Assembly: GCA_948567375.1 (NCBI GenBank)
Contig: CAOYZS010000005.1
Location: 868,001 to 932,000, forward strand
Reading direction: 5' to 3'
DNA from: Lunularia cruciata
Taxonomy: Eukaryota; Streptophyta; Marchantiopsida; Lunulariales; Lunulariaceae
DNA length: 64,000 nucleotides
The stretch's first letter is position 1, and every line of letters begins with the position of its first letter. A model generated the notes under the pieces. The model did no database searches and was not told the DNA's origin. It was given only the letters and a program-made list of their open reading frames with translations. The position numbers were made by a program, and so were the translations under genes. This document shows positions 19,114 to 61,986 of this stretch, in pieces.

Positions 19114-19228
19114 AAACAGAGTGAGATTTGAAGAGGCAGATATGAAGAGGTGGTTTGTCATTTGGATCTATAGGTTTGTAGAGTTGTTGTAGAACGGTAT
19201 TTTTGTTAGTTAACTATCAATTGCTCTA

Positions 19229-19238
19229 CTATTTAAAG
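19229..19238 (+). promoter_or_regulatory. TATA box of the LTR promoter
   Basis: CTATTTAAAG, 116 bases after the U3 frame stop. The same motif sits at the same place in LTRs of both orientations (for example 5668, 27335, 45149, and as complement at 557, 9790, 21998, 35590, 39603). It implies that transcription starts about 30 bases further on, so the coding region lies in U3 upstream of the promoter. Confidence 0.75.
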
Positions 19239-19904
19239 GAGGCATTTGTAGTACAATGTTGTTCAATATTCATATTTTTGAAGATAGATAAAGCGAAATG
19301 CTGATTTCAGTGCTCATTGCTTGAGCTTAATTTTGAGTATCAACTTTGTGATTGTGTTGTAAGTATGTGGAGAAATTTGAAGTGCGAGTCAATGTGCTTG
19401 TTGGATGTTGGATTCCGCAGCCTTGATCTTCATTTTGTGTGTTGGAACTTGAGTGAAGTGCAATCAGAGCAATGCCTTGACAGATCTCAGAGAATTGTAG
19501 TGTTGGTAGTATTCTGCATTTGTCAGTGTAGCAGTGTTGATGTGAAGCAATTTAGATTGAGGAAGTTGAGCCTTCAGTGGAGGGGTGGAACACAATTATG
19601 AGGTGAAGTTGTTTTGCAGTGAGGTGCCATCTTTGGGAGAATCTGAATCATCACAATCAAGATTTGTTTGGACAGAATTTGCTATGTTGTGATTATGGGT
19701 GTGTGTATTCGTGACAAGTTGTCAAAATTGTGAGCTTGTTACTCTCTTCTAGGTGTAGTTTCTACCTGAGAGATTAAAGAAGAACCCAAGAAGAACTACA
19801 TTGTTACTATTTGCTTTGTATTTGACCAATTCTGAATCATATCTCCGTGGGAACGATCTTACTTACCCGATTACCACAAAAGTAATATTTGCCGGGTTGT
19901 CACA

Positions 19905-23478: not shown

Positions 23479-25695
23479 AGGGGAAGAGAGGAAATCCAGC
23501 TCAATGGACGGAGGCGGATTGGAGAGTAGTTTTGGGAAGAGAAGCAAGAGAAGTAGGAGGTACCACCTTCTATTGGGAGTGTGATGCTTCAGAAGAGACT
23601 GCCAAAGTGAGGAATTTGTTCAATCAACCTCGCACCAAGAATGAGTATAAGGTGGACAGTTATAGAGACCCCGAGCGGAGATGGATAGCAAGCACAATGA
23701 TGGCAATGTTCAAGCCAGAGCAAACCACCTATGTTACTATGCAACAGGCGGTGTTCTTTCACCAAATGTTTACGGGAGAGGCAATAGATTGGGTGAAATG
23801 TCTGCATCAGAGAGTGGGGCAGATGATTTAGAGGTGGAGAATGGATATGCCACCGCATTATTTCATGCCCTTTGCAGCGCACTTTTATTTTGGGTTGAAC
23901 TTGCTGACCTCAAAAGAGAGAAATTGAATGCACTCGCACTTTCATTTGGTTTTGCAAAAGGAGGCAGATGTAGATGAGTGATATTATATGGAGAGAGTGC
24001 AAGATAGGGATGAGTACTATAAGAAGAATGGGAAGGAGAAAATTGTAGCAATTGACCTTCCAAGGGCTAGAAAGAGAGCCAAGCCTAGGAGTTGTGTTGC
24101 GACAGTCCAGCCCTAGAAAGTGCCAAAGCTTAACCCAATTGCGGTGGTGGTGAAGACAAAGGAAGCCACGCCGGAATTGGAAGAAGAGTTGGAAGGAGAA
24201 ACTGGATTGAAGGAAGAAATGTCAAGAGAAGAAGAGGAGTTCATGCTACGAAGTGAAGAATTGAGCAGTGACAATGAAGGCGAGGCAGAGGTTCAGCAAA
24301 CACAAAGGCCAATGGTCGGGGTAGGAAAGCCAAGTCCCAAAGTTTCTACGCTTGAATGAGGAAGTGAGAAGAAGAAAGGAGAGGAAGTCGTGGCACAACC
24401 CCGGACTGCCAAGAGGAAGAATGTTATGATTGCAGCTGAAGTGGGGCCTAGTAAAATTACCCTAGAAGAGGAGGAAAGCTTGGAGGAAGAAACTTTGAAA
24501 GTACAAAGATCATGACTTTGGGGCAAATGCAAGAAGTAGCGTGGTCGGAACCCAAAGGCCAAGCCGATGGTGAAAAGTGCAAAGGAGTGGAATATCTATC
24601 GAAGGTAGTATGTCCGTTGTTGATGTTTCTACAGCAGAAGAAGATGGAGATGGTAAGTGCCAATCTTGAGGTGCGGGATGAGTTGGCAGCAGTGAATACT
24701 TGGAGTACAGAAACCTCATTGTTGCAAAGTAAGTTGATGAGGGTGGAGATGGAAGCCGAAGAACTTCAGGTTGAGAAGGTTCTTTGGAGTAAGCACTTTG
24801 AGGTGATGAGGGAGGATCTAGTAAAGAGTTGCAAGGAGGCAAAGGAGATGACCATGTTGGTTGTAGTGTTGAAGGAGGAAATTGCAAATGCCCGAGTGGA
24901 GTTAATCCACTTGAAAGCAATTACAGTAGTGATGGAGTAAGAGTTGGAGAGTCTCAAGAAGAAGGTAGTGGAGAAAGATCAAGCCTAGCAACAGGAGTTA
25001 GCGGAGTGTGGTAGAGAAGAAGATTGGTTGCAAGGATTGGTGCGGGTAGCAGAGGAGAAAATCTTTGTAAATTGGAGGGAAAAGGAGGCATCGAAGGCCA
25101 AAATTGAAGACAAGCTCCAGATGTATCATAGTGAATTGGAGGAAGAAAGGATGAATGAGAAGCATATGGACGTAGGAGAAGCTGATCAGATAGTCAGAGT
25201 CATCAATGAAATCAAGGCAATTCTAAGCACGGAAGTTGAAGGTAAACTCAAGGAGGTGAGATTGCATGAGCTGAACTTACTAGTGCAAGAGACGTGCAAG
25301 AGAAAGGCAAAGGACACAGAGTTGAATAATTTATTGATTTGTTTGCAAGATCGTGTACATAGGAAGATGTTAGAGGTAGGAGACAATGTATGTCTCGAAC
25401 TAGATCTTGTTAGAACGGAGTTAGATAAAATTTGTTGTGAGGTACAAGAAGTACGAAGACCTAAAGTTGTAGAAGTAGGAGTATAGGTGTCTTCAGAGTT
25501 GTTCTCTGAGACCTTAGAGAAGAGTGGGTGGGGTGAGTTACAAAGATTACCTAGGACCTCATTGTAGTTTGTAGTGCAGAAATTGTAGAAATAGAAGAGT
25601 TAGGAGTAGGATTAGATAGACCTGAGGATGGTGAAATTATCAAAGGATCATCAGGTTTGAAAGCCAAAGCTGAGGTTGACATCATATCGGAGTAG
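23479..25695 (+). pseudogene. U3 protein, missing only its first part
   Basis: In order: N-terminal domain from WTEADWRVVLGREA through FKPEQTTYVTMQQAVFFHQM and PPHYFMPFAAHF (to about 24020), basic and acidic linker (24120-24500), coiled coil at 24512-24940 (LGQMQEVAWS ... ELIHLKAITVVME), and the conserved C-terminal block at 25028-25486 (VRLHELNLLVQE, HRKMLEVGDNVCLELDL). The frame ends VDIISE at 25695. About six stops and frameshifts. The N-terminal domain at 23532-23831 is open for 99 codons. No signal peptide, membrane span or catalytic motif is seen. Confidence 0.78.
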
Positions 25696-30102: not shown

Positions 30103-31816
30103 TGTGGTACTCAGATTTTTCATTTTTTTTAGTTTTTGTTCTATTTTGAAGAAGTGTATAGATGAGTCATATTGAACCCAAATGGCATGGGAGGGAGAAG
30201 AATTGGGTCTTTGGTTTGTAACTCAAAGTAAAGTTACTTTGTATTTGACATGAAGTACTCGGGATCAGATCTGTCAGAGTTCAACCCAAAGTAAGGAGAC
30301 TTCACCTTCGGGTGATCAACCCGATGCAAAGACAATGTAATAGATTTCCTTTGGGTTGGACATTCAAGATTGTATTGCACACAAAAATGGCTAAGGCATG
30401 AGCAAGAGAAATTTGACAATGACAGGAGAAGCGCATGCAGAAGGTGTGATTCCTCTATGGACAAGCATTCAAAGAATTACTAAGAAACATCGGACTATAA
30501 AGTCACATTTTGAATCAAGAAAGAGATGAAATGACAAGTGACTTTCCTTTGCCTTTGTGAAGTTGTCTTGAGGGAGACCAAGGAAGAGGAGAGGTAGTGA
30601 GTGAAGTTTTGAGGAATCCATAGGGATTTAGAGTTGCTAGGGGATGGGAGAATTGTCTTGGAGAAGCATATCATGAAAGAGAATAGAATGAAGGAAATCA
30701 AGAAGTGCCCTACACTGGGAATGAGGAACCTAGTGATTAGGAGGTTAGACATAATGGCTCGCATTGAAGTTCTCAGTAAACTTTGTATTACTTTCCTTGC
30801 ATGGAATTGGAACCTAAGTTTTTCCAATTTCATGGTAGAGATCATGGCCAGTAAGTGTGTAGATGGGCAGGCGACAATAGGGAAGAGAGGCAATCTAGCT
30901 CAATGGACAGAGTCAGAATGGAGATTGGTGTTAGGCAGAAAGAGTGGGGAAGAGCATGGGGCCACATTCTTGGGGAAAGGAGAAGTTGCAGAAGAAACCC
31001 AAGAGATCAGAAATTTGTTCTACCCCAAAGTGTACAAAGAATGGGTACAAGGTGGAGACTTATCGGGGCTAGGTGTGGAGGAGTATTGTTAGTGCGATGA
31101 TGGCCTTCTTTAAATCCAAGCACACTACCTATGTTATGAAGCAGCAGGTGGTGTTATTTCATAAAATGTTTGCAGGAGAGCCGATCAATTGGGTGAAGTG
31201 TTTCTATCAACAAACATAGCAGATGGTGCTGAATTGGAGGAGTTTGACACCATCACACTATTTTGTTCCTTTTGTAGTGCATTTCTACCTCAAGTTGAAT
31301 TTGCTAAGTAGCAATGAGAAGAAGAAGGTGATATCTCACTTCCATCCCGATCTACATCAAGAAGCCAATGAAAAGGAGTTATAGTATATTAGGCAGTTGA
31401 GAAGCAATGACAACCACTATGCAAGAATGGGACAAGATAGAAGGATTTTTGTACCTCTGCCAAGAAACAAGAAGAGAAGTTGACCTAAGGTGGAGAGCTC
31501 ACCAGTGCAGCCCTAAAAATCAAGAAGAAGTGGGCAGAGGGAGAGAAAGAAAATCCAAAAGATTGCACTAGAAGAGGAGGTCAAATTGGAAGGCAAAGTA
31601 GAGTCTCCATCAAAGGGGTTGGAGGAAGAAGAAGTAGAATTAACCCTAGAAAGTGAAGAATCCAGTGAGGAGAGTGAAGATGAAGCTGAGGTGCAAAAAG
31701 ATCATGGGAAGGTAATTTCCCTATAAGAAGACATTGAGCAGCAGGGGGTAGAAGAAAGGACTGTGGCAGAGTTACTGATTGAAGAAGAGGAAGTATTGAT
31801 GGCCGAGCCAAGGCTT
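30103..31816 (+). repeat. 3' LTR, cut in the acidic linker
   Basis: Starts TGTGGTACTCAGATTTTTC. It runs through the U3 leader and N-terminal domain and ends after the linker (VLMAEPRL). There it meets a 131-base piece of a minus-strand LTR start. Confidence 0.82.
30634..31816 (+). pseudogene. U3 protein, N-terminal domain and linker
   Basis: The frame 30634-31092 is open for 152 codons: MRNLVIRRLDIMARIEVLSK, CITFLAWNWNLSFSNFMVE, GKRGNLAQWTESEWRLVLG, then GATFLGKGEVAEETQEIRN. After a frameshift the sequence continues with TYVMKQQVVLFHKMFAGEP, NWVKCFYQQT and HFHPDLHQEANEKE, then an acidic linker EEVELTLESEESSEESEDE near 31630. It belongs to the same N-terminal subtype as 54065-55423 (ATFLGKGEVAEETQE is shared). 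Confidence 0.75.
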
Positions 31817-40311: not shown

Positions 40312-42071
40312 TATGGTACCACATTTTTTTTTGTTCTATTTTGAAGAAGAAGTGTACAAAAGAATTTGTATTGAACCCAAATGGTGTTGAAAGAAGATGA
40401 ATTGTGTCTTTGGATTGAAAACTGAAGTAAATTGACTTCATGTCAGAACCAAAGGACTTTGATCAGACTTGGCATAGAGAAATCCAAAGTAAGGGAACTT
40501 CACCTCAAGCTGATCAACCCAATGCAAAGATGGCATAACTACTTCCCTTTGGATGTGTCAATGTAGAAAGGAGAGGTAAGAAAATTGTGGCTAATGTGCA
40601 AATGACTAACCTTGATAATGCAAAGATGAACTCATGCAAAAATGGTGAGTTTCAATGAAGAGAGATAAAAGAATGACCAATCAACAAAGAATTATAAAAT
40701 CAAGACTTCATCGAGAGGATTTTGAAATGTCACACAAGTATCCTAAGCCACTAAGTAGTTGACTTGAAGGAGTGCTTGTAGCAAAGCCAATTGATAGTTT
40801 GATGTTTAACAATTCTGAAGACGTTAGGATCTTGAGACTAGGAGACGATAGAATTATCTTTCAGCTACCACGTGTTAGAGATCACACAATGCCAAAGAAG
40901 GGTGAGAAGAAGAGTCCTTCACTTGCTGTAAGAAATCTGGTTATTCAAAGGTTAGATATGATAGCCATGATCAAAGTATTGAATAGACTGTGGATCACTT
41001 TTTTGGCATGGAACTGGACTTGAGTTTTCCAAGGTTCATGATAGAAGTAGCTTCAAGTGATTGTGAGGAAGGACTTAAGAATGAAGAGAAGCAAGGAAAT
41101 CTTGCTAAATGGACAGAGTAGGATTGGAGATTGGTGCTGGGAAGCAAGGCCAGTGAGGAAGTTAGGGCTACGTTCCTTAGGAAGGGAGAGCCTACGGAGG
41201 AGGCAAATGAAATTTAAAATCTTTTCATTGCGCTATGCACAAAGAATGAGTACAAAGTTGATACCTATTGGGCCCCAGTCAGGCAATGTATCATTGGGGC
41301 AATGATGACATTGTTTAAACCTGATTGCACTACATACATGATGAAGCACCAGGTGGTGTTCTTTCATTAGATGTTTGCAAGAGTGCTAGTGAATTGGGCA
41401 AAGTGTTTTCGCCAAAGAATGAGGTAGATGGTGTGGTGTCAAATAGATCAAGATGCTCCCTACTACTTGGTGCCTTTTGCTGCACATTTTTACTTTGGGT
41501 TGAACTTGATGAAGGAGACTGAGCAAAGGAAGATGGTGTCTCACTTTTATCCAGATCTACAAAAAGCTATGGATGAGAAGGGACAACAATATATCCGACA
41601 CATCTGAAGTAGTGATGAGCATTATGCAAGAATGGGGCAACACATGGTAGCCGTGAAGATCCCAAAGATGAGGAAGAGAAGTCATCTTGAGGAAAGCATG
41701 TTGCCGGTCCAGCCGAAGAAAATAAGGAAGGTGAACTCAAGGCAAGACATTGTGGTAATTGATGAGTTGTTGGGATTAAAAGAGTCAAAAGGCAAAGCTA
41801 AGTACAAGTCAAAAGATTGAGGAGAAGAAGAAGAACTAGAGCTTATGTTGCAAAGCAAAGGGTCAAGCAGTGGGAGTGAAGATGAAGCAGAAGTTCAACA
41901 ATGGGGCAAAGATGATGTAGATACCAAAGAATGAAAGTTCCATGCAACGAGTGATTGCATGGGAGGAGGAGACATTTTGTGTCCAAAATTGCCAAGCATG
42001 GAGATAGAAGAAACTTTGGAAGCCGAGCCAAAGTTGGAGTTTTAGATAGGAAGAAGATTGAGGAGAAGTGT
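40312..42071 (+). repeat. LTR fragment, U3 half
   Basis: Starts TATGGTACCACATTTTTTTT and runs through the N-terminal domain and linker. It is interrupted at 42071 by the LTR start of the plus-strand element. The remainder would lie beyond that element, outside the window. Confidence 0.83.
40772..42030 (+). pseudogene. U3 protein, N-terminal domain and linker
   Basis: Start MLVAKPIDSLMFNNSEDVRI (40772), then KKGEKKSPSLAVRNLVIQRL and RLWITFLAWNW. After frameshifts come FLRKGEPTEEANEI, FKPDCTTYMMKHQVVFFHQM-like residues near 41320, DAPYYLVPFAAHFYFGLNLM and HFYPDLQKAMDEK near 41560, a basic stretch VQPKKIRKVNSRQD near 41710, and an acidic Ser/Glu linker near 41830-41900. About eight stops and shifts. 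Confidence 0.72.
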
Positions 42072-42525
42072 TGTGGTGCCTACATTCTTTTTTTTTTTTC
42101 TGTTTATTAGCATTTAAGGGAAGAAGTAAGCACGGAAAGCCAAATTGCAGAAGAAGTGATGGACGGAAGCGACTTCGGAGGAAATCTGAAGAAGGTGAGA
42201 TCAATTTGATGATGGAGAAACTCAAAAGAGAGGTACAACGTAAAAAGTCCAAAGAGCATCATCTTCGGGTCGGAAAGCGCAGGTGATACAAAGACCGTCT
42301 ATTAACCTTGGTACGTGGAAAGAAAGTACACTTCAAGAAATGGTGGAGGCAGAAGAAGCATGTCTTGACAGTGACAGGACAGCAACACACAGAAGAGGGG
42401 AAGTCGAATTTGAAGTTGACTGAAGAATGACTACAATTTGAGGTAATATAAAATTGCAATTGTGCAAGGACAAGTTGAAAATGCCAAGTAAATTTCCAAT
42501 TCCTTTGTGTAGTCATCTTGTAGTA

Positions 42526-45030
42526 ATGCGTGTCCGAAAGCCAATTGAGAGTGCAATTTTCCAAAATCAAAAAGGGGTTAGAGTGCCTCGTCCAGGAGAA
42601 GGCATAGTCTTTCAATGCCAAAGAATGAGAGAGTAGATCATGGCAAGAAGGTCACAAATGTTATGGCGGTTTGAAGTTTCACAATTTGTAGGTTAGAAGT
42701 GGTAGCCAAAATTAAGGTCTTGAAAAGACTTTGTATTACGTTTTTAGCATGGAACTAGAATTTTAGTTTCCCATGAGTGATGGCAGAGATAGCTACCAGT
42801 AATTGTGAAGAGGGCCCCAAAATCGAAGGGAAGAGAGGGAGTCCGGCTCGATGGACTGAGTCGGATTGGAGGTTAGTGTTGGGGAAGGAAGCAAGAGAGC
42901 TGACGGGGATCACCTTCTATCGGAAGTGTGATGCTAGAGAAGAGATGGCAGAAATCCGAAATTCTTTCTTTCCTCCGAGAACCACAAATGGCCACAAGGT
43001 GGAGTCCTATCGGGATCCAATTAGAAGAAGTATCGTGGGGGCAATTATGGCCATGTTCAAGCCAGAATGAACAACTTATGTGAACATGCAGCAAGCGGTC
43101 TTCTTCCACCAAATGTTTGCAGGGGTAAAGGTAAATTGGGCGAAGTGTTTTCACCACCAAATGAGGTAGATGGTGATCAATTGGACGACATGTTTGCCTC
43201 CACATTATTTTGCACCATTTGCAGCACATTTCTACTTCGGGTTGAATTTGCTAATAGTGGAGGAGAGGCATTGCATGGTGTCACATTTCCATCCTGATTT
43301 AAGTCGGGAAGCAGATGAAGAAGAGCTTGCAAGTGTGTCATATATGACACACCTGCGAGCCAATGATGATCACTTCTTGAAGATGGGACAATGGAAGATG
43401 GAAGAAGTCACAAGTCCAAAGAAGGAGAAGCGTAGTAAACCCCAAAGAAGCAAAGTCACCTCCAGCTCAAAGGAAGACTTGAAGACTAGTTGTGCAGAGT
43501 AAGAAGATGGTGAGAGAAGCATCATCGGAATCAGAGTCTGAAAAAGAAACAAAGTCGCAAGGAGAGGAATGAGCAAAGGATGAACTCACCTTACAAAGTG
43601 AGGAGTCTGGAAGTGAGAGTGAGGGGGACCCTAAGGTTCAGCAAGCGGTTGGAGTCAGTGAAGCTTGTCATGCGATGATTGACAGAGTACCTAGAACAAC
43701 AAGTCATTGTGTAGCCCTAGTGGTAGACAAGCAGAGACCAGAGGAAAAGAAGGAATATCCTAGGGGCCGAGATCAATGGGTAAGGAAAAGAGAGTTCAGA
43801 AGCGGTGTCTCTAAGATATAAAGATCATGACTTCGGCAAAAGGAGCCGATGGAGGAGCCAAAGTACAAAGACAAAGATAGCAACAAAGATGAAGAGAACT
43901 TCAGTGGGATACTATATCTAACAAAGGTTGTCACACCAGTGCTGGAACTACTGAGGGAGCATCAGAAAGTAATTCCCAAAGATCATAGAAAGGTGATGAA
44001 TGAGCTGCAGGTGGTGAAGCATCTATTGAGTGAAGTGAAGGGGTTGCACGAGCAAGAAGTCCGAAGAAATGAAGAAATTGAAGAACTTCAGAGGGATGAA
44101 GTCTTGAAGAAGAAGACTTTCGAGATGTTACAAGAGAGATGCGAGTCAAGAAGGAAAGAACTGCAGAAGCAAGTAGGGGAATTGAAAGAGCAGGCAATGT
44201 TGCTGAGCAAAATAAAGGAGGAACTTGAAGATGTGCGCATCGAGAATATTCATTTGAAGGTGACGGTAGTGATGATGTAGCAGGAGTTGGACAGCTTGAA
44301 GAAGAGTGCAGCTAGGAAGGATCAAGCATGGCAGAGAGAGTTAGCAGTCAGACATGAAGAAGAAGAAAGATTGTGTGAGCTAGTGCAAAGTGCGGAGCTA
44401 CAAAGTTAACAGTATGCGGAGGAGAAGAAGATGCTGGCTGTTGAGTACGAAGAGGAGCTGAAGATGTATTGTGAAGAGCTGAAGGCAAAGCGATCACAAG
44501 GGTATGAGTTGGAATCAGTGGGAGATGTAGCAGGAAAATTGAGAGCTATGCTCTGCATTGAGGCTGAAGGGAGATTAGAAGAAGCACTTTTGCATGAGCT
44601 CAAGTTGCTTGTATAGGAAACTTAGAAGAGGAGAGTTAAAGATGTAGATATGACTATTTTGCTGATCCGATTGAGGGAGAGAGTAGATCGGAAGATGTTA
44701 GAAGTAGAGGACAACGTTAGTCTCAAATTAGATTTAGTCAATTCAAAGTGAGAGAAAATTAGGAGTAGTGTGACAAGGGAGAAGAAGTTTGATGTTGCAA
44801 ACATCAGTATACAGGTGTCATCGGACTTGTTATTTGACACATTAGAGAAGAGTGGGTCAGGAGATAAGGAAGTAGATGGATTACCCATGAGCTTAATTGT
44901 AGTTCCTAGTGTGGAAGTAGTAGAAGTAGTGCAGGAATTAGTAGTTGTAAATATACCGGAAGAAGGAGAAGTACTAGGAAGATCATTGGGTTTGAAAGCC
45001 GATGATGAGGTAGACATCGGATCGGGGTAA
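42526..45030 (+). pseudogene. LTR-encoded U3 protein, full length but broken
   Basis: Start MRVRKPIESAIFQNQKGVRV at 42526. The N-terminal domain (42660-43380) has WTESDWRLVLGKEARELTG, GHKVESYRDPIRRSIVGAIM, MQQAVFFHQMFAGVKVNWAK, PPHYFAPFAAHFYFGLNLL and HFHPDLSREADEEE. A basic then acidic linker follows (43390-43800). The coiled coil (43849-44750) is open for 143 codons at 43849-44280 and includes LQVVKHLLSEVKGLHEQE. The C-terminal part (44770-45030) reads ISIQVSSDLLFDTLEKSGSG and ends DDEVDIGSG. About ten stops or frameshifts. Predicted as a rod-like, highly charged protein. No known enzyme motif, signal peptide or transmembrane segment. Confidence 0.85.
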
Positions 45031-45148
45031 GTAACAATCTTGAGATAGGAAGAGGTACATATGAAGAGGTGGTTTGTCAGTTTGTATCTGTAGGTAGGAA
45101 GAGATGTTAGGAAGCGGTACATCAGTAGGAAGAACTACCGTTTGCTTC

Positions 45149-45158
45149 AATATTTAAG
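45149..45158 (+). promoter_or_regulatory. TATA box of the 5' LTR
   Basis: AATATTTAAG, 118 bases after the U3 frame stop and about 670 bases before the LTR end, the same place as in other copies. It would drive the genomic transcript that reads through R-U5 and gag-pol. Confidence 0.7.
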
Positions 45159-45836
45159 GGGAACATTTGCAGTACTACGTTGTTTAGTATTCAAATTTCT
45201 GAAGATAGATAAAGCAAAGTGCTAGTTTTAAGTGCTTGTCGCTTGAGCTTAATTCCAATGTCAATTCTGTGTTTGTGTTTGTGAGTGTGTGGAGAAATTC
45301 AAAGTGCAAATCAATGTATATGTGGATGTTGGATTTTGCAGCCTTGATCTTCATTTTGTGTGTTGATCCTGAGTGAAGTGCATTGGAGCAATGCCTTGAC
45401 AGATCTGAGAGGAATTGTAGTGTTGGTAGTATTCTGCATTTGTGAGTGCAGCACGAAGTTGATGTGAAGCAATTTTGATCGAGGAAGTTGTGCCTATAGT
45501 GGAGGGGTGGAACACAATTCTGAGGTGAAATCATTCTTTGCAATGAAGTGCCGTCTTCAGGAGAATGTGAATCATCACAATCAAGAGTTGTTTGAACAGA
45601 ATTTGCTATGTTGTGATTATGTGTGTGTGTATTTGTGACAAGTTGTCAAGATTGTGAGCTTGTTACTCTCTTTTGGGTGTAGTTTCTACCTGAGAGATCA
45701 AAGAAGAAATCAAGAAGAACTACAAGTTACTGTTTGACTTTGTATTTGACCAATTCTGAATCGTATCTTTGTAGGAACAAACTTTACTTACCCAATTACT
45801 GCAAAAGTGATATTTTCTGGGTTGTCATATGATTTT

Positions 45837-45854
45837 TGGGGCCGCTGCCAAGGA
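45837..45854 (+). other. Primer-binding site, tRNA-Asp type
   Basis: TGGGGCCGCTGCCAAGGA, seven bases after the LTR end, differs at four positions from TGGCGCCGTTGCCGGGGA. The minus-strand copies at 61962-61979 and 63135-63152 keep a nearly perfect version, which supports tRNA-Asp as primer. Confidence 0.87.
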
Positions 45855-45917
45855 TACAAAACTCGGAAGTGGAAGAATACAAAGCCAAATTCAAAATTGG
45901 GCGTCAAAGCAATATGA

Positions 45918-47954
45918 ATGTCTACATCAAGAGAACAATGGGAAGAGAGAGTTCAAAGACAAATGTTGCATCATGAAGAAGAAGAACATCTGGAGATCTA
46001 ATCTACTTTGGCCAAAACTGAGCAAGAAGCGTTGGACTTTCAACTTCTTCACAAAGTTCAAGAAGCTTTGCAAGAACTCAAACAAAAGAAATGTGAAGGA
46101 GGGTGGCAAGGCTACTTTTTGTCCCCATCTTCCAAGAAGAAGAAAGACTCGAGTAGGTAGACATATGCATTATGACCTAGTATGCCGACTTCCTCCAAAG
46201 TTGTAAAGGAAGTCAAATTCATTAAGAAGTTTGTTCATGAAAAGACAACACAAACACTTACAGAAGAAGAGTGTCAACATCTTGTACGAACGATCCCTTG
46301 GTTGTCCCAAAGGAATTTTGAGGACCATTTGGAAGGTGTGGAACCTCTATCTTCTAATCGGGTTGAAGTTGACACAACCAGAGAAGAAGAAATTGTCGAA
46401 GAAGACCCCACTTTGAATTTGACTAATTGGAACCCTTGGGCAGCCAACATGGCGTCCATACCAAGCAGCTCTTTGGTTCCCTCAAGTTCAAACTTACCTC
46501 AGTCGATTCTCCCGCATCAAATGATGACTTCGTTACTTGTGACCCGACACGCCTATCAAAAGTATAAGGGGACAGAACAAGACAAAGACCCTAATGAATT
46601 AATCAAGGAGTTCGAAGTCATTTCCTTTGCCAACAAGGAACATGAATTTGCGGATCGACTGTGGATTTTTCCAAGTCTGCTCCGAAAGAAAGCTCGGAGC
46701 TGGTACACCCATGTAACTCAAAAGGGGTTCACACCAACAAACTAGGCAGACTTACAAAATGGCTTCCTGGAACAATTTTGGGAAGTGGATTATGATACAA
46801 GTGTCTTTGCAGCACTTAATGATTTGGACCAAGGGAAGAAGGAAAAATTGAGAGATTATTCTGAGCGGTTCATGGCCTTATTGAACCAAGTTCCGAAACA
46901 ATCCAATGTGGTGGGTTATTCCAATGCCCAAGCCATTACTTGGTTTCCTGGAGGGCTTTCACCAGAGATTTGAATCTTTGCCAGGGAGAGGAATGTAACT
47001 TCCCTAGACAAAGTCCTCAAACATGTTGCCCAATATGAGGCAGCTCACTCTCACTCGTCCAGCAACCAAAGAAATCAGGAGAAGAAGGGCAAGAAGCCTA
47101 GACAAAGAGCTTCTCGCAACACCTCTCCTTCTTTGGAGGAATCCTCCACATCTTTGAGTTCTTCTTCAGAATCCAACAAAAAACCCAAGCCGCGAAGAAT
47201 ATGAAGACGTGGAGGAAAGAAGCCAGTAACACCGCCAACAAAGAATGTACCTAAGGCGGATCAGAAGCTGGAAACTCTTATTAAAGAGTTCATGGATTTC
47301 AAGATCCAGATGATTGGGGCTAAGGACCAAAGAAAGCCCCCATCATTTGGTCAACCAAATGTATGGTGCACTACGTGTGGTAAATCTGGCCACGCTAATA
47401 TGGACTGTTTGACCCACATTGCATTTCCAGTGCAACAAATTGATTGGGTCCCTGGTTGGGACCAGAGTGAGGAAGAAGAGGCTATATACCAAACCCAAGA
47501 GATACAATCTCCGACGAGCACATCATATCAAGGTCCCATGTATGGACTAAGAGAGTACAATAATAATGCTCCCTCACAAAGACCACCGATGGGCGGCCAA
47601 AATAGACCTCAAAATGTTGCACTGGGTGCTTGTTACAATTGTGGCTCGATGGGACATTGGTCTCCAAATTGTTTGGAGCCAGGATGGCAAATTGGGTACG
47701 TGCCCCTTTGTGGAAATTGTAAAGGATTGGGGCACACGGGAAATCAGTGCCCGCAACCACCCAATCCAAAGCCCCCTGTAAAGTATGTACAGACCCCCGC
47801 TGAGTGTGTTGCGCTCCAAGCGCAGGGGGATACGAATGTAAATTGTATCACACTTGAAGAAGAGAGACCTCAAGAAGGGAGTCCTGCTTCAGAAGGAGAA
47901 TGGCCAGACCTCAAAATCTTGAAGGTAGAAACCCGCACAGGGAGGAAGAATTGA
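45918..47954 (+). pseudogene. gag with three CCHC zinc knuckles
   Basis: Translation starts at MSTSREQWEERVQRQMLHHE (45918). An N-terminal coiled coil is followed by the capsid-like region (RHAYQKYKGTEQDKDPNELI, KKARSWYTHVTQKGF, DYDTSVFAALNDLDQGKK, AQAITWFPGGLSPE), a basic Ser/Lys/Arg-rich linker (47080-47290) and three knuckles: CTTCGKSGHANMDC (47367-47408), CYNCGSMGHWSPNC (47631-47672) and CGNCKGLGHTGNQC (47709-47750). The frame is uninterrupted by shifts. Only in-frame stops occur, the first at 45999. It stays in phase with the protease and RT downstream, so gag and pol are one polyprotein. It would build the particle and package RNA. Confidence 0.9.
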
Positions 47955-49020
47955 GCTCCCAAAGAAGTGAGTACTATGTCTTTGTCTTCATGAAAAGCAA
48001 AGAGACTCCGAATAAAAGCTATTCTTTTTGCTAAAGACGAAAAGGTCCTAGCAAAAGCTAAAGTAAAAGCCTTGCAGAAAGAAATTAAGGAAGCAGTACT
48101 CCGCACGTAGGAGATGAGTTTGGAGGAGAGTACAAAGACATAACCTCTAGTTTTTCCGGCGGATATCAGGTCCAAAGTAAAAGACTTGATCCAAGCCAAA
48201 GTCGGGCAACCCGATGATCATTGGGTCAAGGACATACGTACTCCGATTACTATCCTTAAGCACCCCAAAGTCCAATTTGAACAAGCATAAACTTCAGATC
48301 CAAAGACAAAGGTGAAGTAGGTGAAATTGGGAGGAGTTCCATAGTATGATATTGTGGCAGATATGGTGTCTACAAGTGCTAATGTCACATTTAAACAATT
48401 GTGGGAGGACAACAAGCTGTACAAAAAGCAGCTAAGTTCAGCCCTCAAGAAAGTAAGGGCGATGACTAAGAAAGACTTGCCCACAATTTATCGTATTGAA
48501 CAAGAAGATTTGGGATCTCCCTTGGTGGATGCGGAGATAGCAGGCTGTATGATCACATCCATACCCATTGATTTGGGGTCGGGTGTGAATGTCATGACAG
48601 AAGACACTGCACATTGATTGGGATATACAACATTTGAACCAACACTCCAAATTCTGAAATTTGCGGATCAAACTAGGAGACGGCCCTTGGGCATATTGTT
48701 GAATATCACCACAAATCATTGGAAGGGTGCTCTTCAAATTGAATTACATTATGTTGCGACCAGTAACCAAAACTGGTTATCCTCTCTTGATTGGAAGACC
48801 CTGGTTGTACAATGCCCAGGTCATGGTGGATTGGCACCAACAAAAATTAAGATTTAAAGACATTTCATCCAAAGAGCAAAAGCTGGTGACTGTAAGTTGG
48901 ACGAAGGTTCCTCACCTTGGGGAAACTACTTTGTTAGAAGACAAAGATGAATCCACAAATTCATCGTCTTCATCTTCCAAAGACTCTAAGATGAAGTCCA
49001 AGTTAATTACCTGGAATGCT
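47955..49020 (+). pseudogene. Aspartic protease domain
   Basis: A Lys-rich linker (VLAKAKVKALQKEIKEA) leads into the open frame 48354-48617 with LYKKQLSSALKKVRAMTKKD, LPTIYRIEQEDLGSPLVD and the active site IPIDLGSGVNVM (48570 on; DLG replaces the usual DSG/DTG). The second loop, TKTGYPLLIGRPWLYNAQ, is in another frame at 48760-48820. A frameshift near 48700 is reversed near 48990. Stops at several Gln/Arg/Trp codons. The enzyme would process the polyprotein. Confidence 0.83.
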
Positions 49021-49166
49021 ACGGGGTAAAGCTCAAAGACAAAGACCCATACAACATTGCCTCGGGTGAACAAGACTTGGAGGAAGGGGGTTTGACGGTA
49101 GTACATCTCGGATTGAGCCGAGTGAGCCTTGTGGAAGGCGCCATCAACCCCGATGACTATTAAGAT

Positions 49167-50195
49167 GTGGTCTTGACTAAAGGAAAATTTTTGAAGATTT
49201 CAAAGTCAGTCACTGTGGAGGAGTTGGTAGGATACACTGCCCTGTTTATAGAATTCCAAGATGTATTCACCTGGTCTATTGATCAAATGTCGGGAATTCC
49301 ACAAGAATTTGGACAACATCAGATTGATCTAGTTGAAGGTGTAGTTCCGGTTCGCCAAAGACAATACCGCCTGAACCCAAAGTACTCCCTCTTGGTGAAA
49401 GATGAAATTGACAAGTACTTAGGGGCCGGAATAATCTTTCCTGTCTTGAGCAATGAGTGGGTTTCCCCCATTATCATCGTTCCAAAGAAGAAGACAGGAA
49501 AGATTCAAGTGTGCCAAGATTTTTGCAAATTAAATGCAGTCACAAGAAAGGATCACCAAGTAGCTAGTCACCCTTGCTATAGTTTTCTCGATGGATTTTC
49601 AAGATATAATCAAGTATCCATTCAAGAAGAGGACAAGGATAAAACTTCATTCACCACCAATTGGGGCACCTTTGCTTACAATCAAATGCCCTTTGGGTTG
49701 TGCAATGCTCCCGCTACTTTCCAACAGATGATGAATGTGATCTTCAAGGATTTCATGCGTAAATTTGTGGAAGTCTTCATTGATGATTTTTGTGTGTTTG
49801 GACAAAGAGATGTACATTTGGATTACCTTCGCCAAACCTTTGAAAGGTTTTATTTTGCCGGTTTGTCATTATACCCGGAGAAATGCTTCTTTGCAATGAA
49901 AGAGGGAATTCTTTTGGGGCATCGGGTGTCAAGCCAAGGTATTGAAGTTGATGCCAAGAAGGTCAAAGTAATCTCAGCTTTGGAATCCTTGAAGAATATC
50001 CGGGAATTGAGAGCCTTCTTAGGACATGTCGGATACTACAGACACTTTGTGTCATCTTATGCGGTGCTGGCTGCACCCCTTACAAAGCTACTGAAGAAAT
50101 CCAAAAACTACTTGTGGGAAGCCATGCAAGAAGATGCTTTCCAAGTATTGAAGCGGAAACTGGTTGAAGCACCAGTTATGAGGGCCCCAAATTGA
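49167..50195 (+). pseudogene. Reverse transcriptase
   Basis: 342 codons without a stop, in phase with gag. Visible motifs: LNPKYSLLVKDEIDKYLGAG, SNEWVSPIIIVPKKKTGKIQ, LDGFSRYNQVSIQEEDKDKT (first catalytic Asp at 49590), FTTNWGTFAYNQMPFGLCNA, the FIDD box (49779-49790; usually YxDD) with FCVFGQRDVHLDYL, and the thumb region up to YRHFVSSYAVLAAPLTKLLK. Compared with the minus-strand copy an 11-residue segment (around PLPFTNTIQ) is missing after KDH at about 49553, removing part of a conserved region, so the enzyme would be impaired despite the open frame. It copies the element RNA into DNA. Confidence 0.93.
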
Positions 50196-50680
50196 GACGC
50201 CCCTTTTCATGTGTATCTAGACACTTTGTCCATGGCAATCAAGGTTGTCTTAAGTCGAAAGGACAAGAAGAAGAAGGACTACCCGGTCTATTAGCCAACC
50301 AACAATTATTAGTCTCAAAAAAGAACTATTCAATGACTAAATGAGAAGCACTCTGGAATGGTGTATGCCTGCAAGAAAGTTTGCTACTACCTACTGGGAT
50401 ACAAGTTCGTCTTCTATGTTGACCATTATGCATTGCAACACTTGGTCAAGAAGGTAGATTTGTCCCGGCAAATTGCATGATGGATCTTGTTGTTACAAGA
50501 ATTCACATACATTGTAAAAGTAAGGAAGGGAGCTTTGCATTCAAATGCGGACTTCTTATCCAAGTTAGAAACTCAAGACCAAGAGTTGGAAATCAATGAT
50601 TGGTTTTCTGATGAAGAGCTATATCATTTGATGGCTGTTCAAAGTACAATGTGTGTGGCTGAATTGCATGTGTCATTGTC
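50196..50680 (+). pseudogene. RNase H and linker
   Basis: FHVYLDTLSMAIKVVLS (first Asp), a stop-ridden middle where YPVYYASRQLSVSEKNY-like sequence is degraded, then VYACKKVCYYLLGYKFVFYV and DHYALQHLVKKVDLSRQIA. The tether ALHSNADFLSKLETQDQELE follows. Five or so stops. A frameshift near 50665 moves the following integrase into another frame. RNase H would remove the RNA template. Only one RNase H domain is present. Confidence 0.83.
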
Positions 50681-51945
50681 CTGAGGGGCTGGACCCGGAG
50701 CAAAGGGCAGTCTTCCTCCAAAAAATGGGACTGTACCAATTAAAACACAACATTTTGTTTAAGATGGGCAAAGATGAAGTACTTTGGAGATGTTTGGAAG
50801 CATATGAAGTCAGAGGAGTCATTGAATCCTTACACTCAGAAGCATTAGGAGGAAATTATGCCCTGAAAAATATGGTGAAGAAAATCCTTTCAGTAGGGTA
50901 TTGGTGGCCTACAATGTATAAAGATACTCACGCCTATATTCAAAGTTGTGATGCTTGTCAAAGAACAAGGAAACCAACGGCGAATTCCCAACGGCCTTTG
51001 AAACCAATTTTGCCCCTGGCCCCATTTGAGAAATGGGGTATTGATTTTGTGGGCCCTATTCAACCAGTGACCCGTGTCATGAGGAAGAGGTACATCCTGG
51101 CATGCACCAATTATGCTACCAAGATGGTGGAAGCAGAGGCAACACGAAGAGATGATGCAAAAACAGTTGCAGAATTTTTCTTCTGAAACATCATTTCCCA
51201 TTATGGGTGTCCTTTGGAATTGGTCAGTGATTGGGGAACCCATTTTTTGAACTTTATGGTGGAAGCGTTAACCAAGTACTTCCAAATTAAACATCAAAAG
51301 ACCATGCCTTACAACCCAAAAGCAAATGAACTCACAAAGAAGGCCAACGGATTGTTGTGCAAAATTTTGAACAAGGTAGCAGTCAATTATGCCTACGAAT
51401 GGGACACAAAGTTACCTGCAGCTTTGTGGGCATTTCGAACAACTCAAAAGATTACTACCAAGCAAACTCCTTACTTCTTGACATACGGATTGCATCCCAT
51501 ATTACCAGTTGAATTTGAAGTACCAACATATCAAATTCTTTGTGAAGAACGCTTGTCGGAGGAAGAAAGCCAAGATCTTTGGATCCATCAACTGATGTGG
51601 TTAGAAGAGAGAAGGAACAATGCAATGCAAACTATGAAGGAAGTCCAAGAACAACAGAAGGTTAGGCACGATAAAAGAATCAAACTTGTGGCTGTTTAGG
51701 AGGGAGACTTGGTATTGTTATATGACAATCGCCGCATATTTTTTCCAGGAAAATTACATTTGAGGTGGATGGGGCTGTATTGCGTGATGCACATATATGT
51801 CAATGGCTCTATTCAACTTGCAAACTTGGACGGCAATCCTTTTGCCACTCGCATCAACGGGTGGAGGGTAAGAAAATATTGGACCACAGACCCAACTTTG
51901 TATAAAGAACCACTTGTCAGTGTTCGCGAGGACGCTCACATTTGA
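50653..51945 (+). pseudogene. Integrase with GPY/F-like tail
   Basis: The zinc region has LHSEALGGNYALKN (second His changed to Asn) and SCDACQRTRKP (50947 on). The core has the first Asp in GIDFVGPIQ (51043) and the second in SDWGTHF (51229). The expected Glu is Lys at 51337 (NELTKKANG, against NGLTERKMG in the minus-strand copy), which would abolish activity. The tail reads GDLVLLYDNRRIFFPGKLHL, RWMGLYCVMHIYVNGSIQL, NGWRVRKYW and ends EDAHI at the stop 51943-51945. Stops occur at about 51184 and 51700. No chromodomain follows; the polypurine tract begins within the stop codon. Confidence 0.9.
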
Positions 51946-51954
51946 GGGAGGGGG
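51944..51954 (+). other. Polypurine tract overlapping the pol stop
   Basis: GAGGGAGGGGG begins on the last two bases of the TGA stop, and TA separates it from the LTR start at 51957. The same arrangement occurs in the minus-strand copies, so no separate gene exists between pol and the LTR. Confidence 0.9.
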
Positions 51955-51956
51955 TA

Positions 51957-53330
51957 TGTGGTGCCCACATTTTTTGTTTTTTCTATTTATTAGCATTTAA
52001 GGGAAGAAGTAAGCACGGAAAGCCAAATTGCGGAAGAAGTAATGGATGGAAGGGACTTTGGAGGAAATCTGAAGAAGGAGAGATCGAATCTGATGATGGA
52101 CGTACTCAGAAGAGGCATACGACGGAAAAAGTCCAAAGAGCATTGTCTTTGGGTTGGAAAGTGCAAGTGATACGAAGACCGTCTAACAACCTTGGTATGT
52201 GGCAAGAAAGTACACTTCAAGAAACGGCGGAGGCAGAAGAAGCATGTCTTGATAGTGACAGGACAGCAACACACAGAAGAGGGGAAGTCAAATTTGAAGT
52301 CGACTGATGAATGACTACAATTTGAGGTAATATAAAATTGCAATTGTGCAGGGACAAGTTGAATATGCAAAGTAAATTTCCAATTCCTTTGAGTAGTCAT
52401 CATGCAATAATGCGTGTCCGGAAGCCAATTGAGAGAGCAATTTTCTGAAATCGAGAAGGGGTTAGAGTGTCTCGTCCAAGAGAAGGCATAGTCTTTCAGT
52501 GCTGAAGATCAAGAGAGTAGATCATGGCAAAGAAGGTCACAAATGTTCCGGGGGTGCGAAGTTTCACAATTCGTAGGTTAGATGTGCCTGAATCAAGGTC
52601 TTAAAAAGACTTTGTATTATGTTTTTAGCATGGAATTGGAATTTCAATTTCCAAGAGTGATGGCAGAGATAGCTACCAGTAATTGTGAAGAGGGCCCCGA
52701 AGTAGAAGGGAAGAGAGGGAATTTGGGTCGATGGACTGAGTCGGATTGGAAGTTAGTGTTGGGGAAGGAAGCAAGAGAAGCAACAGGGAGCACCTTCTAT
52801 TGGAAGTGTGATGCTGCAAAAGAGATGGTGGAAATCCAAAATTCTTTCTTTGCTCCAAGAACCACGAATGGGTACAAGGTGGAGTCCTATTGGGATCCGA
52901 TTAGAAGAAGTATCGTGGGGGCAATTATAGCCATGTTTAAGCCAAAACAAACAACTTACGTGAACATGCAGCAAGCGGTCTTCTTCCACCAGATGTTTGC
53001 ATGGGTAAAGGTAAATTGGGCAAAGTGTTTTCACCACCGAACGAGGTAGATGGTGATCAATTGGAGGACAAGTTTGCCTCCACATTATTTTGCACCATTT
53101 GCAACACATTTCTACTTCGGGTTGAATTTGCTAACAATGGAGGAGAGGCATCACATGGTGTCACATTTCCATCCTGATTTAAGACGGGAAGCAGATGAAG
53201 AAGAGCGACAATATATGACACACCTGCAAGCCAATGATGATCACTTCTTGAAGATAGGACAATGAAAGATGGAAGAAGTCACAAGTTTGAAGAAGAAGAA
53301 GAGCAGTAAACCCAAAGAAGCAAAGTCACA
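51957..53330 (+). repeat. 3' LTR, first 1.4 kb, cut by a nested element
   Basis: Starts TGTGGTGCCCACATTTTTTG and aligns with the 5' LTR from 42072 to about 43450, ending AAGCAAAGTCACA where TGTGACAACCC of the minus-strand element begins. TCACA at 53326-53330 is the likely target sequence. Its second copy lies outside the window. Confidence 0.9.
52410..53330 (+). pseudogene. U3 protein of the 3' LTR, N-terminal domain
   Basis: It starts at MRVRKPIEREIF-like sequence at 52410. The frame 52582-53049 is open for 155 codons (CEEGPEVEGKRGNLGRWTES, TGSTFYWKCDAAKEMVEIQN, NGYKVESYWDPIRRSIVGAI, FKPKQTTYVNMQQAVFFHQM). After one stop (53047) it goes on in the same frame with MVINWRTSLPPHYFAPFATH, HFHPDLRREADEEERQYMTH and a stop at 53263. 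This is the best preserved N-terminal domain on the plus strand. It is truncated at the start of the linker by the nested insertion. Confidence 0.83.
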
Positions 53331-55832
53331 TGTGACAACCCGGCAAATATCACTTTTGTGGTAATTGGGTAAGTAAAGTTTGTTCCAGCATAGATACAAG
53401 TCAAAATTAGTCAAAAACAAAGTCAAATAGTAACAATGTAGTTCTTCTTGGTTGCGTCTTTAATCTCTCAAGTAGAAACCACACCCAGAAGAAAGTAACA
53501 AACACTGATTCTCAATCTTGTCATGAATTCACACTCCTTAATCACAACTCCATCAAATCTTTCCAAACAATCTTGATTGTGATGATTCAAGCTCTCCCAA
53601 AAACGGCACTTTACTACAAAATGACTTCACCTCAAAATTTTGTTCCACCCCTCCACTGAAGGCACAACTTCCTTGATCAAAATTGCTTCACATCAACTTT
53701 GCACTGCACTCACAAATGCAGAATACTACCAACACTACAATTCCTCTCAGATCTATCAAGGCATTGCTTCGATTGTACTTCACTTAGGATCAAACACACA
53801 GAATGAAGATCAAGGCTGCGGAATCCAACATCCAACAAGCACACTGACTTGCACTTCAAATTTCTCCACACTCACAAACACAATTGCAAAGCTGATACTC
53901 GGAATCAAGCTCAAGCGACAAGCACTGCTTCATAGCTAGACGAACTCGGCTTTCACAATTTCTTGCAAGTACTCCAGTCCATCACTTGCAACTACTTCAA
54001 CCTACGGAGTGATCTCCTTCTTCACCTCTTGTTCTCCCGATACTTGCCTTCTTCTCTACAGTCATCATATCAGTATAGACGCTTCACTTCCCGAACTAGC
54101 ATTCTCCTCTTCCCTTGCCTTGCTCGGACCCACTTCACACTTTGCCTTGCACTTTGACTGAACTCCCCTCTGAATTGTAATCTTCTTCTCCTCCGGCTTG
54201 GGTACCTCGTCCTCCAACTTTGCATTATTTTCTTCCTCAATCCCCACCTGAACTTCTTCTTCTTCTATAGGTATAGACGTCATCTCCCCACCTTCATTGC
54301 TATCATTACTTGTATCCCCACTTAAGAGTGTGAGCTCAGGTTCTTCCTCGTGTTCTGAGTCTTCAGACTTGCACTTGGCTTTGCCTTCCAAGTCTTCTTC
54401 CAATGACGCGATCACCACCATACCTTTCCTTGGGTTTCCTCTCCTGGTCTTCTGAGGTCTTGTCTTCTCTACGTCTTCACCTTCTCCTTGTCGACTCTAC
54501 TTCTTTGACTTTGGAGTACTTACTTCTACTTGCACACTCTTCCCCGTCTGTGCATAGTACTCATCAGTGCTCCGGATTTGAAGAATATATTGTTGCTCCT
54601 CCACGTCGACTTCTCTTCTCAAGTCGGGATGAAAGTGATACACCATTTTGCTGCACATTGCCGAATTGAGCAAATTCAACCCGAGGTAGAAATGTGATGC
54701 AAACGGCATGATGTAGTGTGGAGGCGACTTATCCCACAAATTCCACACTATTTGCCTTGTCCTCCCATGGAAGCACCTCACCGAGTTGATAGGTTCTCCT
54801 ACAAACATCTTATGGAAGAACACCGCTTGGTGTTTCATCACATAAGTTGTCCTCTCCGGCTTTAGGATTGCCATGAGAGCATTCACAATCCCTCTCTTCA
54901 CCGGATCTTTGTAACTCTTGACCTTATACCCATTCTTCATCCTCTTCGAAGAGAAGGCATCCCTCACTTCTTGGGTTTCTTCCGCTACCTCTCCCTTCCC
55001 CAAGAATGTGGCACCCTGCTCTGTGCTTGCCTCTCTTCCAAGCACCAATCTCCAATCCAACTCTGTCTAGCGAGCCGGATTTCCTCTCTTCTCCTCTTCC
55101 TCGAGGCCATCAAGACACTTACTTTCAATTATCTCGGTCTTGAATCCTGGAAAACTTACATACCAATTCCATGCCAAGAATGTGATTTAAAGTCGGCTCA
55201 AAACTTCAATTATTGTGATCACATCTAACCTCCAAATCGCATGATTTCTCACTACAAATTTGGAGTTCTTCTTTCCTCCTCCCATCTTTCCTGCTTCCTC
55301 ACTATCTCTTGGATTAACTCTCTCAAATTCTCCTCTACACACTAGCACGTCTTCAACTCTACTTCCCTGCCCGTGATCTCCTACAGGACGACTCCTCAAT
55401 AGGGAAGGAAAATTGCTTGACATTGCTTTGTTGTTAGCCCAATTTTTATAGAGTTGCGCCTTCTTTGTCTCTCTTCACTTCGAGTTTCTACTAAGAAATC
55501 ACACTTCTTGCATGCGCTTGTCACTATCAAGTGTACTTCACGCATATGACCGCCGGTTTTTGAACTGTCCCTTCTTGAATTTCTTGCCCCAAAGAAAGGT
55601 AGTTACAATATCTTCACCTCGGGTTGAGTTCCCCCCAATAGGAAGACTTCTTACTTCGGATTGTATGATGACAAGGCAAGTCCAAGTACTTTGCCTTATG
55701 ACCCAAAGCCACGTTACCTTGGGTTTCATCCCAAAGACGCTTTTCTTCGCCTTCTTTGGCCATACAGGCGCAATCTGACTTCTCTATATACTTCTTCTTC
55801 TCCATTTCGAAAAAAAAAATGTAGGTACCATA
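53331..55832 (-). repeat. 3' LTR of the minus-strand element, internally deleted
   Basis: LTR start TATGGTACCTACATTTTT (complement at 55832) and end GCCGGGTTGTCACA (complement at 53331). A deletion near 53937 removes the TATA box and the coiled-coil half of the U3 frame, joining U5/R to the region after the linker, so this LTR is about 2.5 kb and not 3.7 kb. Confidence 0.88.
54065..55423 (-). pseudogene. LTR-encoded U3 protein, best N-terminal copy
   Basis: One frame from 55423 to 54065 (about 450 codons) with only three internal stops (55187, about 55067, 54497) and no shift. It starts MSSNFPSLLRSRPVGDHGQG, continues VVRNHAIWRLDVITIIEVLS, FLAWNWYVSFPG, ATFLGKGEVAEETQEVRD, NGYKVKSYKDPVKRGIVNAL, YVMKHQAVFFHKMFVGEPIN, PPHYIMPFASHFYLGLNLL, HFHPDLRREVDVEEQQYILQ, a basic patch (TRPQKTRRGNPRK), and an acidic linker (SEDSEHEEEPELTLLSGDTS). 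It ends where the coiled coil has been deleted. The conservation of residues without frameshift is the strongest sign that this region was coding. Confidence 0.87.
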
Positions 55833-61898: not shown

Positions 61899-61961
61899 TC
61901 AAATTGCTTTGATACCTAGTTTCAAATTTGGCTTTGTATTCTTCCACTTCCGAGATTTGTA

Positions 61962-61979
61962 TCCTCGGCAACGGCGCCA
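61962..61979 (-). other. Primer-binding site, tRNA-Asp type
   Basis: Minus strand TGGCGCCGTTGCCGAGGA, one base different from TGGCGCCGTTGCCGGGGA, seven bases from the LTR end at 61987. Confidence 0.93.
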
Positions 61980-61986
61980 AAAATCA

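Follow-up and report, generated by a model that had tools for sequence, protein, structure and literature searches.

A gene under purifying selection inside the long terminal repeats of a Lunularia cruciata Ty3/gypsy family, apparently with a promoter of its own

We analysed a 64,000-nucleotide stretch of the genome of the liverwort Lunularia cruciata (contig CAOYZS010000005.1, positions 868,001 to 932,000; hereafter the window), in which a Ty3/gypsy retrotransposon, element A, carries a large reading frame inside its long terminal repeats (LTRs). The repeats are true LTRs that contain this frame, and the codon changes among genome copies indicate that the frame is a gene on which purifying selection has acted in two old lineages within the family. 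The best explanation of the whole, which we hold with modest confidence, is that the LTR is itself a gene with two promoters, whose protein we guess to be a self-associating nuclear accessory factor. The frame was noticed in an initial annotation of the window as a protein of about 800 codons lying between the LTR start and an LTR TATA box. Element A, in which reverse transcriptase (RT) and a stretch resembling a primer-binding site (PBS) could be located, is laid out as follows.

42072..45829, + strand: 5' LTR of element A, 3,758 nt; starts TGTGGTGCC, ends GTTGTCATA, then the PBS-like stretch
42447..42453, + strand: TATAAAA, proposed promoter of the LTR gene, in the 5' LTR of element A at LTR +376
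42640..45030, + strand: LTR gene in the 5' LTR, conserved ATG through the stop that follows ...EVDIGSG; interrupted by stops and frameshifts
45151..45158, + strand: TATTTAAG, probable promoter of the genomic RNA; part of an alignment of 17 LTR ends
45837..45853, + strand: PBS-like stretch TGGGGCCGCTGCCAAGG
46176..51945, + strand: gag-pol of element A, broken
47205-47954, + strand: zinc knuckles of element A
49164-50195, + strand: RT of element A
50632-51186, + strand: integrase zinc-binding region of element A
51700-51945, + strand: pol end of element A
51946..51956, + strand: polypurine tract GGGAGGGGGTA
51957..53330, + strand: 3' LTR of element A, first 1,374 nt, cut by the insertion of element B
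52331..52337, + strand: TATAAAA in the 3' LTR of element A
52524..53262, + strand: N-terminal part of the LTR gene in the 3' LTR of element A; broken

Direct reading of the window placed the LTR start, TGTGGTGCC, at 42072 and again at 51957. The pol stop codon (TGA, 51943-51945) is followed by GGGAGGGGGTA and then, with no gap, by the second LTR start, and the PBS-like TGATTTTTGGGGCCGCTGCC adjoins the 3' end of the 5' LTR. The initial annotation had the frame following the LTR start at both places; this held, except that the copy at 51957 has only the N-terminal part and that both copies are broken. Within the window, BLAST aligned 42072-45829 with 51957-53329 (89.1% identity over 1,390 aligned positions) and with 16257-19902 (two pieces, 76% and 81%). 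Only the N-terminal part is repeated in the 3' LTR because the minus-strand element B, inserted at 53330/53331, leaves 1,374 nt of that repeat. Nesting is dense at this locus. Besides the two LTRs of element A, eight further places in the window match the N-terminal part of the frame, short matches included, and all 10 copies are decayed or cut, with none intact. The frame of the 5' LTR is interrupted by stops and frameshifts that leave its two parts in frames 1 and 2, and that of a solo LTR, solo LTR C, is split over three reading frames. Since every copy in the window is broken, the window alone would present a relic, and copies from elsewhere in the genome were required.

Genome copies were searched in the 565,766,749-base assembly that contains the window. 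A protein search with a 189-amino-acid (aa) piece of the N-terminal (N) domain yielded 20,081 first-look candidates; the best 150 were scored and all 150 matched, 57 of them free of stops and 93 containing stops. The stops inside these matches were mostly TAG and TGA. A second search with a 155-aa piece from element A yielded 18,737 candidates, of which the best 150 were scored, again with 150 matches. The longest open frames among the scored matches of both searches had 799 codons (copy L061) and 865 codons (copy L065, a solo LTR), in line with the size first proposed; counted from a conserved ATG, their proteins comprise 732 and 778 aa. L061 and L065 represent two lineages, and their proteins are 45% identical over the aligned frame.

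L061 is a 3' LTR, with a polypurine tract before it and CTGCA after it. Its best genome match, with 98% identity across 900 nt, starts 9,955 bp further upstream on the same strand and is a 5' LTR, L068. CTGCA precedes L068, so the same 5 bp stand on both outer flanks of this element. The two LTRs are 97.3% identical, with 88 differences in 3,296 aligned positions; the comparison runs from nt 30 of L061's LTR to about 220 nt short of its end. The frame of L068 has 879 codons with two stops, and 240 nt present in it are missing in phase from L061, a deletion within the gene. In another pair, L069/L070, identity is 96.5% over 3,708 aligned positions. The differences were mostly transitions in both pairs (83 of 88 in L061/L068 and 114 of 130 in L069/L070), an excess expected from deamination of methylated cytosine.

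Three solo LTRs that contain the frame were bounded by perfect duplications: L065 (3,698 nt, AAGCA), L066 (3,706 nt, CCTCT) and L067 (3,691 nt, CTCTA). The insertion site of L065 resembles, by eye, the RT/RNase H region of another retroelement. The earlier statement that solo LTRs with target duplications contain the frame is thus true of these three but fails for the solo LTR in the window (16257-19904), which has no clear 5-bp duplication. The frame lies in the first two thirds to four fifths of the LTR, counted from its 5' end. The polypurine tract, the PBS-like stretch, the TG...CA ends, the CTGCA pair and the three duplicated solo LTRs together put the frame inside the repeat, and it stayed there when the boundaries were re-mapped. 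A host gene or another element lying beside, or nested in, a shorter LTR would suit the dense nesting of the locus, but unlinked copies have the same arrangement, the duplications flank the whole repeat and the frame is present in both LTRs of a pair; we give such misplaced boundaries next to no probability.

Differences between copies were then counted by codon position along the LTR, pair by pair. Within the frame, positions 1/2/3 carried 86/69/224 differences for L061-L063 (p = 1e-25), 122/85/254 for L061-L064, 180/158/269 for L061-L062 (p = 3e-8), 90/64/170 for L065-L067 and 85/65/175 for L065-L066, a third-position excess in all five pairs (p = 3e-8 to 1e-25). The flanking LTR had no position bias, either before the frame (5/5 pairs) or after it (4/4 tested, L062 excluded; p >= 0.16 throughout). 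The ratio of nonsynonymous to synonymous change (dN/dS; Nei-Gojobori, eight comparisons), which the initial annotation had proposed as a check, was not near 1 but between 0.137 and 0.260 in all six within-lineage comparisons, made on copies picked for long open frames: 0.137 (548 codons), 0.161 (219 codons, second piece of L063), 0.171 (491), 0.222 (614), 0.193 (531) and 0.260 (506). Between the lineages (L061-L065 and L061-L067), dS was saturated over the whole frame. For L061-L065, the N domain (codons 114-330) gave a dN/dS of 0.13 at a dS of 2.27, hence a rough value; codons 1-113, mostly upstream of the proposed start, gave 0.455; and dS was saturated in the linker and the C-terminal (C) part, where dN was 0.87 and 0.45.

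Variants shared among copies were also separated from singletons, in a set made of the best query matches plus loci fetched by place; 12 copies without a usable LTR start were excluded, and the duplicate rows wB3 and wC were removed from the lineage sets. Among 31 copies of the B lineage, shared variants (present in at least 20% of rows) fell 36/27/98 at positions 1/2/3 (p = 1e-13) and singletons 83/70/94 (p = 0.12), while the LTR before the frame was flat for both classes. Such a pattern is expected if copies are under selection while they replicate and decay neutrally afterwards.

The codon signal begins about at an ATG that lies at LTR +553 in the B lineage (27 of 31 copies) and at +563 in the A/C set (30 of 31); the predicted products start MGGGKK... 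and MAKKV..., respectively, and the frame of L061 spans LTR +553 to +2748. An exact TATAAAA stands 165-192 nt ahead of this ATG, at +388 in the B lineage (29 of 31 copies) and at +371 in the A/C set (28 of 31). The 7-mer arose in the same 70-nt span in 0.55% and 0.7% of 2,000 dinucleotide-resampled LTR starts. Within the window, TATAAA stands at -384 to -420 in six of nine copies, two of them further diverged, with distances counted from a fixed codon and both LTRs of element A included. The B lineage also has an earlier in-frame ATG at +415 (29 of 31 copies), which lies about at the predicted transcription start and outside the codon signal. Near-invariant short blocks precede the upstream TATA in both lineages (LTR +1 to +370), for example CATGTCTTGA in A/C and ATAAGGC and AGAAATTCAA in B, and are candidate regulatory sites.

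A second TATA-like motif follows the frame. After the stop codon, TATTTAA is present in 13 of 17 aligned LTR ends and TACTTAAG in three, and the motif is lost in one, the 3' LTR of element B. The placing of the frame before the TATA-like TATTTAAG was borne out, with 118 nt from stop to motif in L061 and 121 nt in L065. The stretch after the frame was the least diverged part of the LTR in all four pairs tested. The conserved LTR end (last ~650 nt) includes a TG-rich stretch, which we take to resemble the far-upstream polyadenylation element of plants.

These motifs suggest an arrangement with two promoters. TATAAAA at +371/+388 would start a short mRNA for the LTR protein, ending at the LTR's own polyadenylation site, and TATTTAAG, about 120 nt past the stop, would start the genomic RNA that carries gag-pol; the post-frame stretch would then be the promoter and the R/U5 of the genomic RNA. 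A start at TATTTAAG would make gag the first long frame of the genomic RNA, and the upstream TATA would make the LTR gene the first of its own, so that each protein would come first on its own mRNA, both in full elements and in solo LTRs. The repeat may in this way supply the gene's own promoter, and a solo LTR may by itself amount to a complete gene. Whether the frame is to be called U3 depends on which TATA starts the genomic RNA, TATTTAAG being the putative starter; of the sag-like location proposed at the outset, the position 3' of pol and in both LTRs stands, and the U3 label hinges on this point.

The encoded protein consists of an N domain of ~260 aa, in which many residues are invariant among seven aligned rows, a charged linker with small basic clusters, and a charged, proline-poor C part with a long helical rod. 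The C part was modelled as a 108-residue helix plus two more (mean predicted local distance difference test score, pLDDT, 83.1; predicted template modelling score, pTM, 0.35), and pLDDT was about 90 or more across the first ~100 residues of the rod helix. On this model, the C part is likely a coiled coil. A membrane segment was not found (the highest 19-residue hydropathy values were 1.32 and 1.47), which speaks against an env-like role. In a protein database that includes liverwort proteins (an RT query retrieves Marchantia and Riccia), searched by way of shared 5-residue words, 27 candidates came up for the 189-aa piece of the N domain, none of them reaching E <= 0.01, and the 799-aa frame gave 7,998 scored candidates and no relative. 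Pfam held no family near its cut-off for seven window pieces and three open frames, and sequence and profile searches of PDB found no relative. Weak Pfam matches to Exo_endo_phos_3 (0.044), Nsp1_C (0.078), YwqJ-deaminase (0.095) and the MTR4 stalk (3.1) were far below the cut-offs and differed between copies, and were rejected. An origin of the N domain from gag was likewise rejected (hhalign with a single gag piece of the element gave a probability of 0.1). Our guess is that the protein acts in the nucleus as a self-associating accessory factor, binding nucleic acid or chromatin of the family and aiding expression or targeting.

Several observations weigh against this explanation. On the side of the protein, the AlphaFold2 model of the N domain, built from window pieces only, was helical but poor (pLDDT 60.6, pTM 0.33). 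A crude heptad test of the rod was not above shuffles, 26 and 19 of 100 of which reached the observed value; of the long coiled coil claimed in the initial annotation, the long helix is therefore modelled but the heptad pattern is not supported. On the side of the promoter, TATAAAA ranked only 25th of 531 7-mers before the ATG by conservation in B (5th of 560 in A/C), and three of the nine window copies (w23, w29 and w7) lack TATAAA at the expected place. On the side of selection, the copies used for the pairwise counts and dN/dS were, as stated, chosen for long open frames. Shared variants were only weakly skewed in the A/C set of 31 rows (39/42/55, p = 0.08; singletons 116/115/148, p = 0.02). 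Among 26 C copies taken with L065 they were not skewed (42/41/45, p = 0.66), and the skew of the singletons in that set (127/106/167) probably reflects differences peculiar to L065. To judge by their appearance, the C copies descend from a single source and have decayed since; they lend no support to selection within C.

The last point bears on the possibility that the frame has no present function and is a captured or env-like relic of a dead family. The absence of codon bias in the shared variants of the C subfamily agrees with this, as do the broken state of all window copies and the stops in 93 of the 150 scored matches. With codons so strongly constrained across copies and lineages, and with an element of 97% identical LTRs still carrying an open frame, a relic is very improbable.

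A further point against two promoters comes from long-LTR plant relatives. In rice Retrosat2, with LTRs of more than 3.2 kb, a TATA is annotated just after +212, near the LTR start (PMC3485330), and in the wheat families Wilma, WHAM and Sabrina, which have a tRNA-Asp PBS, a TATA is predicted in the 5' region of the LTR (PMC9744471). If the same holds here, the element may have no promoter but the upstream TATA, which would put the frame in R/U5. In such a one-promoter element, TATAAAA at +371/+388 would start the genomic RNA, U3 would be ~400 nt long and the frame would be translated first, ahead of the PBS and gag. The strength of this TATA and the conserved short blocks in the preceding 370 nt fit such a reading, in addition to the rice and wheat precedents. 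However, an ~800-codon frame upstream would be expected to hinder translation of gag, and R would reach ~3 kb if the poly(A) site lies in the post-frame stretch. Moreover, in 4/4 pairs divergence is lowest between the stop and the LTR end, the part that holds TATTTAAG and the TG-rich stretch, which is what R/U5 should show. We regard a single upstream promoter as unlikely.

The single promoter could also be TATTTAAG, with a splice acceptor in the 3' LTR giving access to the frame, as in a classic env or sag gene. The frame does stand at the env position, 3' of pol, with only the 11-nt polypurine tract between pol and the LTR, and splicing is reported for plant env-like open reading frames (ORFs) (PMC7264820). 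Splicing leaves the conserved TATAAAA unexplained and would make expression from solo LTRs impossible, and we consider it distinctly unlikely. The two-promoter reading accounts for both TATA motifs and remains the one that we prefer.

The window holds further copies of the repeat and its gene, as follows.

53331..55832, - strand: 3' LTR of element B, 2,502 nt; N domain kept; TATTTAAG motif and C part of the gene absent; a polypurine tract precedes its edge
54500..55066, - strand: N domain of element B, 189-aa stop-free stretch
55444..55450, - strand: TATAAAA in the 3' LTR of element B
16257..19904, + strand: solo LTR C with decayed gene
16634-16640, + strand: TATAAAA of solo LTR C
16827-16829, + strand: ATG of solo LTR C
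19111-19113, + strand: stop of solo LTR C
19230-19237, + strand: TATTTAAA of solo LTR C
22122..22820, - strand: C part of the gene, 232-aa stop-free, in another LTR copy
30780..31474, + strand: diverged N-domain copy, TATAAA at -411
40922..41676, + strand: diverged N-domain copy, TATAAA at -420
23451..24074, + strand: diverged N-domain copy, 700 nt upstream without TATAAA
28611..29288, - strand: diverged N-domain copy, 700 nt upstream without TATAAA
6634..7370, - strand: diverged N-domain copy, TATAAA only at -342

A tandem duplication (61528-62700 and 62700-63869, 92% identical) was also observed; it covers the 5' LTR end, PBS and gag start of element B.

Pfam matches in element A comprised zf-CCHC (3.4e-08), RVT_1 (1.1e-18) and, downstream of RT, Integrase_H2C2 (7.3e-12); this order of gag, RT and integrase places it in Ty3/gypsy. 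The hallmarks of the group are present, with TG...CA LTR ends and short duplications, a PBS-like stretch after the 5' LTR and a polypurine tract before the 3' LTR. The nearest named proteins to its RT, among the best 120 of 3,006, are from Marchantia polymorpha (69, 59 and 56% identity) and Riccia. The PBS-like stretches, TGGGGCCGCTGCCAAGG in element A and TGGCGCCGTTGCCGAGG in element B, are presumably of the tRNA-Asp type, and we take the PBS and the pol end to look Athila/OTA-like. The likeness to Athila/Calypso/Diaspora (OTA) lies in a PBS-like stretch a few nt past the LTR, as with TGGCGCCGTTGCCGAGG in B, and the nearest named RTs here are liverwort proteins. Diaspora is described with a tRNA-Asp PBS 5 nt beyond the LTR, which fits the stretch seen here, and by its title the same paper reports that it also lacks env (PMC1142308). 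The env-like ORF of Athila, with its membrane segment and its place between pol and the 3' LTR, differs from the present frame, which lies in the LTR, is separated from pol by the 11-nt polypurine tract only and encodes a protein in which no membrane segment was found.

The sag gene of mouse mammary tumour virus (MMTV) offers a second comparison. As in MMTV, the frame lies in the LTR 3' of pol and is copied into both LTRs, and a separate U3 promoter would be a further likeness, argued here from sequence only. The host element is a plant Ty3/gypsy element here and a betaretrovirus there, and the sag product is much smaller than the LTR protein of 732-778 aa; a sequence relation between the two would not be expected. 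No Pfam family, that of the superantigen included, came near its cut-off for the seven pieces and three open frames, and no direct alignment with sag was made. The MMTV sag gene lies in U3, and the U3 promoter P2 is reported to drive it (PMC9412291).

The additional and env-like ORFs (aORFs and eORFs) of plant elements, such as the env-like frames of Athila and Bagy2, Grande gene23, RIRE2, Retand and Retrosat2 ORF0, are similar in being conserved extra gypsy frames of unknown function, some with long LTRs. Published descriptions place plant additional ORFs in the internal region, mostly between pol and the 3' LTR, and give Grande gene23 its own promoter and a nuclear product (PMC7264820). Retrosat2 ORF0 is placed upstream of gag-pol (PMC3485330), and a survey of plant families includes eORFs, and LTRs that reach about 5 kb (PMC6317226). 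In contrast to these, the frame described here lies in the LTR and is thereby duplicated and survives in solo LTRs.

Accessory genes of LTR retroelements are known, as is a U3 gene in MMTV. What is new, as far as literature searches go, is a large gene under selection that lies within a plant Ty3/gypsy LTR, persists in solo LTRs and has an apparent promoter of its own; phrase searches of the open-licence PubMed Central (PMC) literature found no description of a plant LTR-encoded gene among the titles, abstract openings and passages listed. LTRs are usually treated as regulatory and non-coding, and genes are sought between them; a solo LTR of this family would possibly be a working gene instead of a dead footprint. 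We tentatively propose, as a possibility that we would not call probable, that every LTR, solo LTRs included, is a self-contained gene with promoter, frame and terminator that also provides the parent element with a promoter and a terminator. Loss of gag-pol through recombination between LTRs would then preserve the gene, leaving many potential sources of an element-supporting and possibly anti-silencing factor, which may have helped the family to burst. This raises the testable question of whether an LTR accessory gene acts against host silencing or sustains the expression of copies. The larger genome of Lunularia cruciata has been attributed mostly to bursts of Ty3/Gypsy elements (PMC9985172), and the family that carries the LTR gene may be one of those behind this growth.

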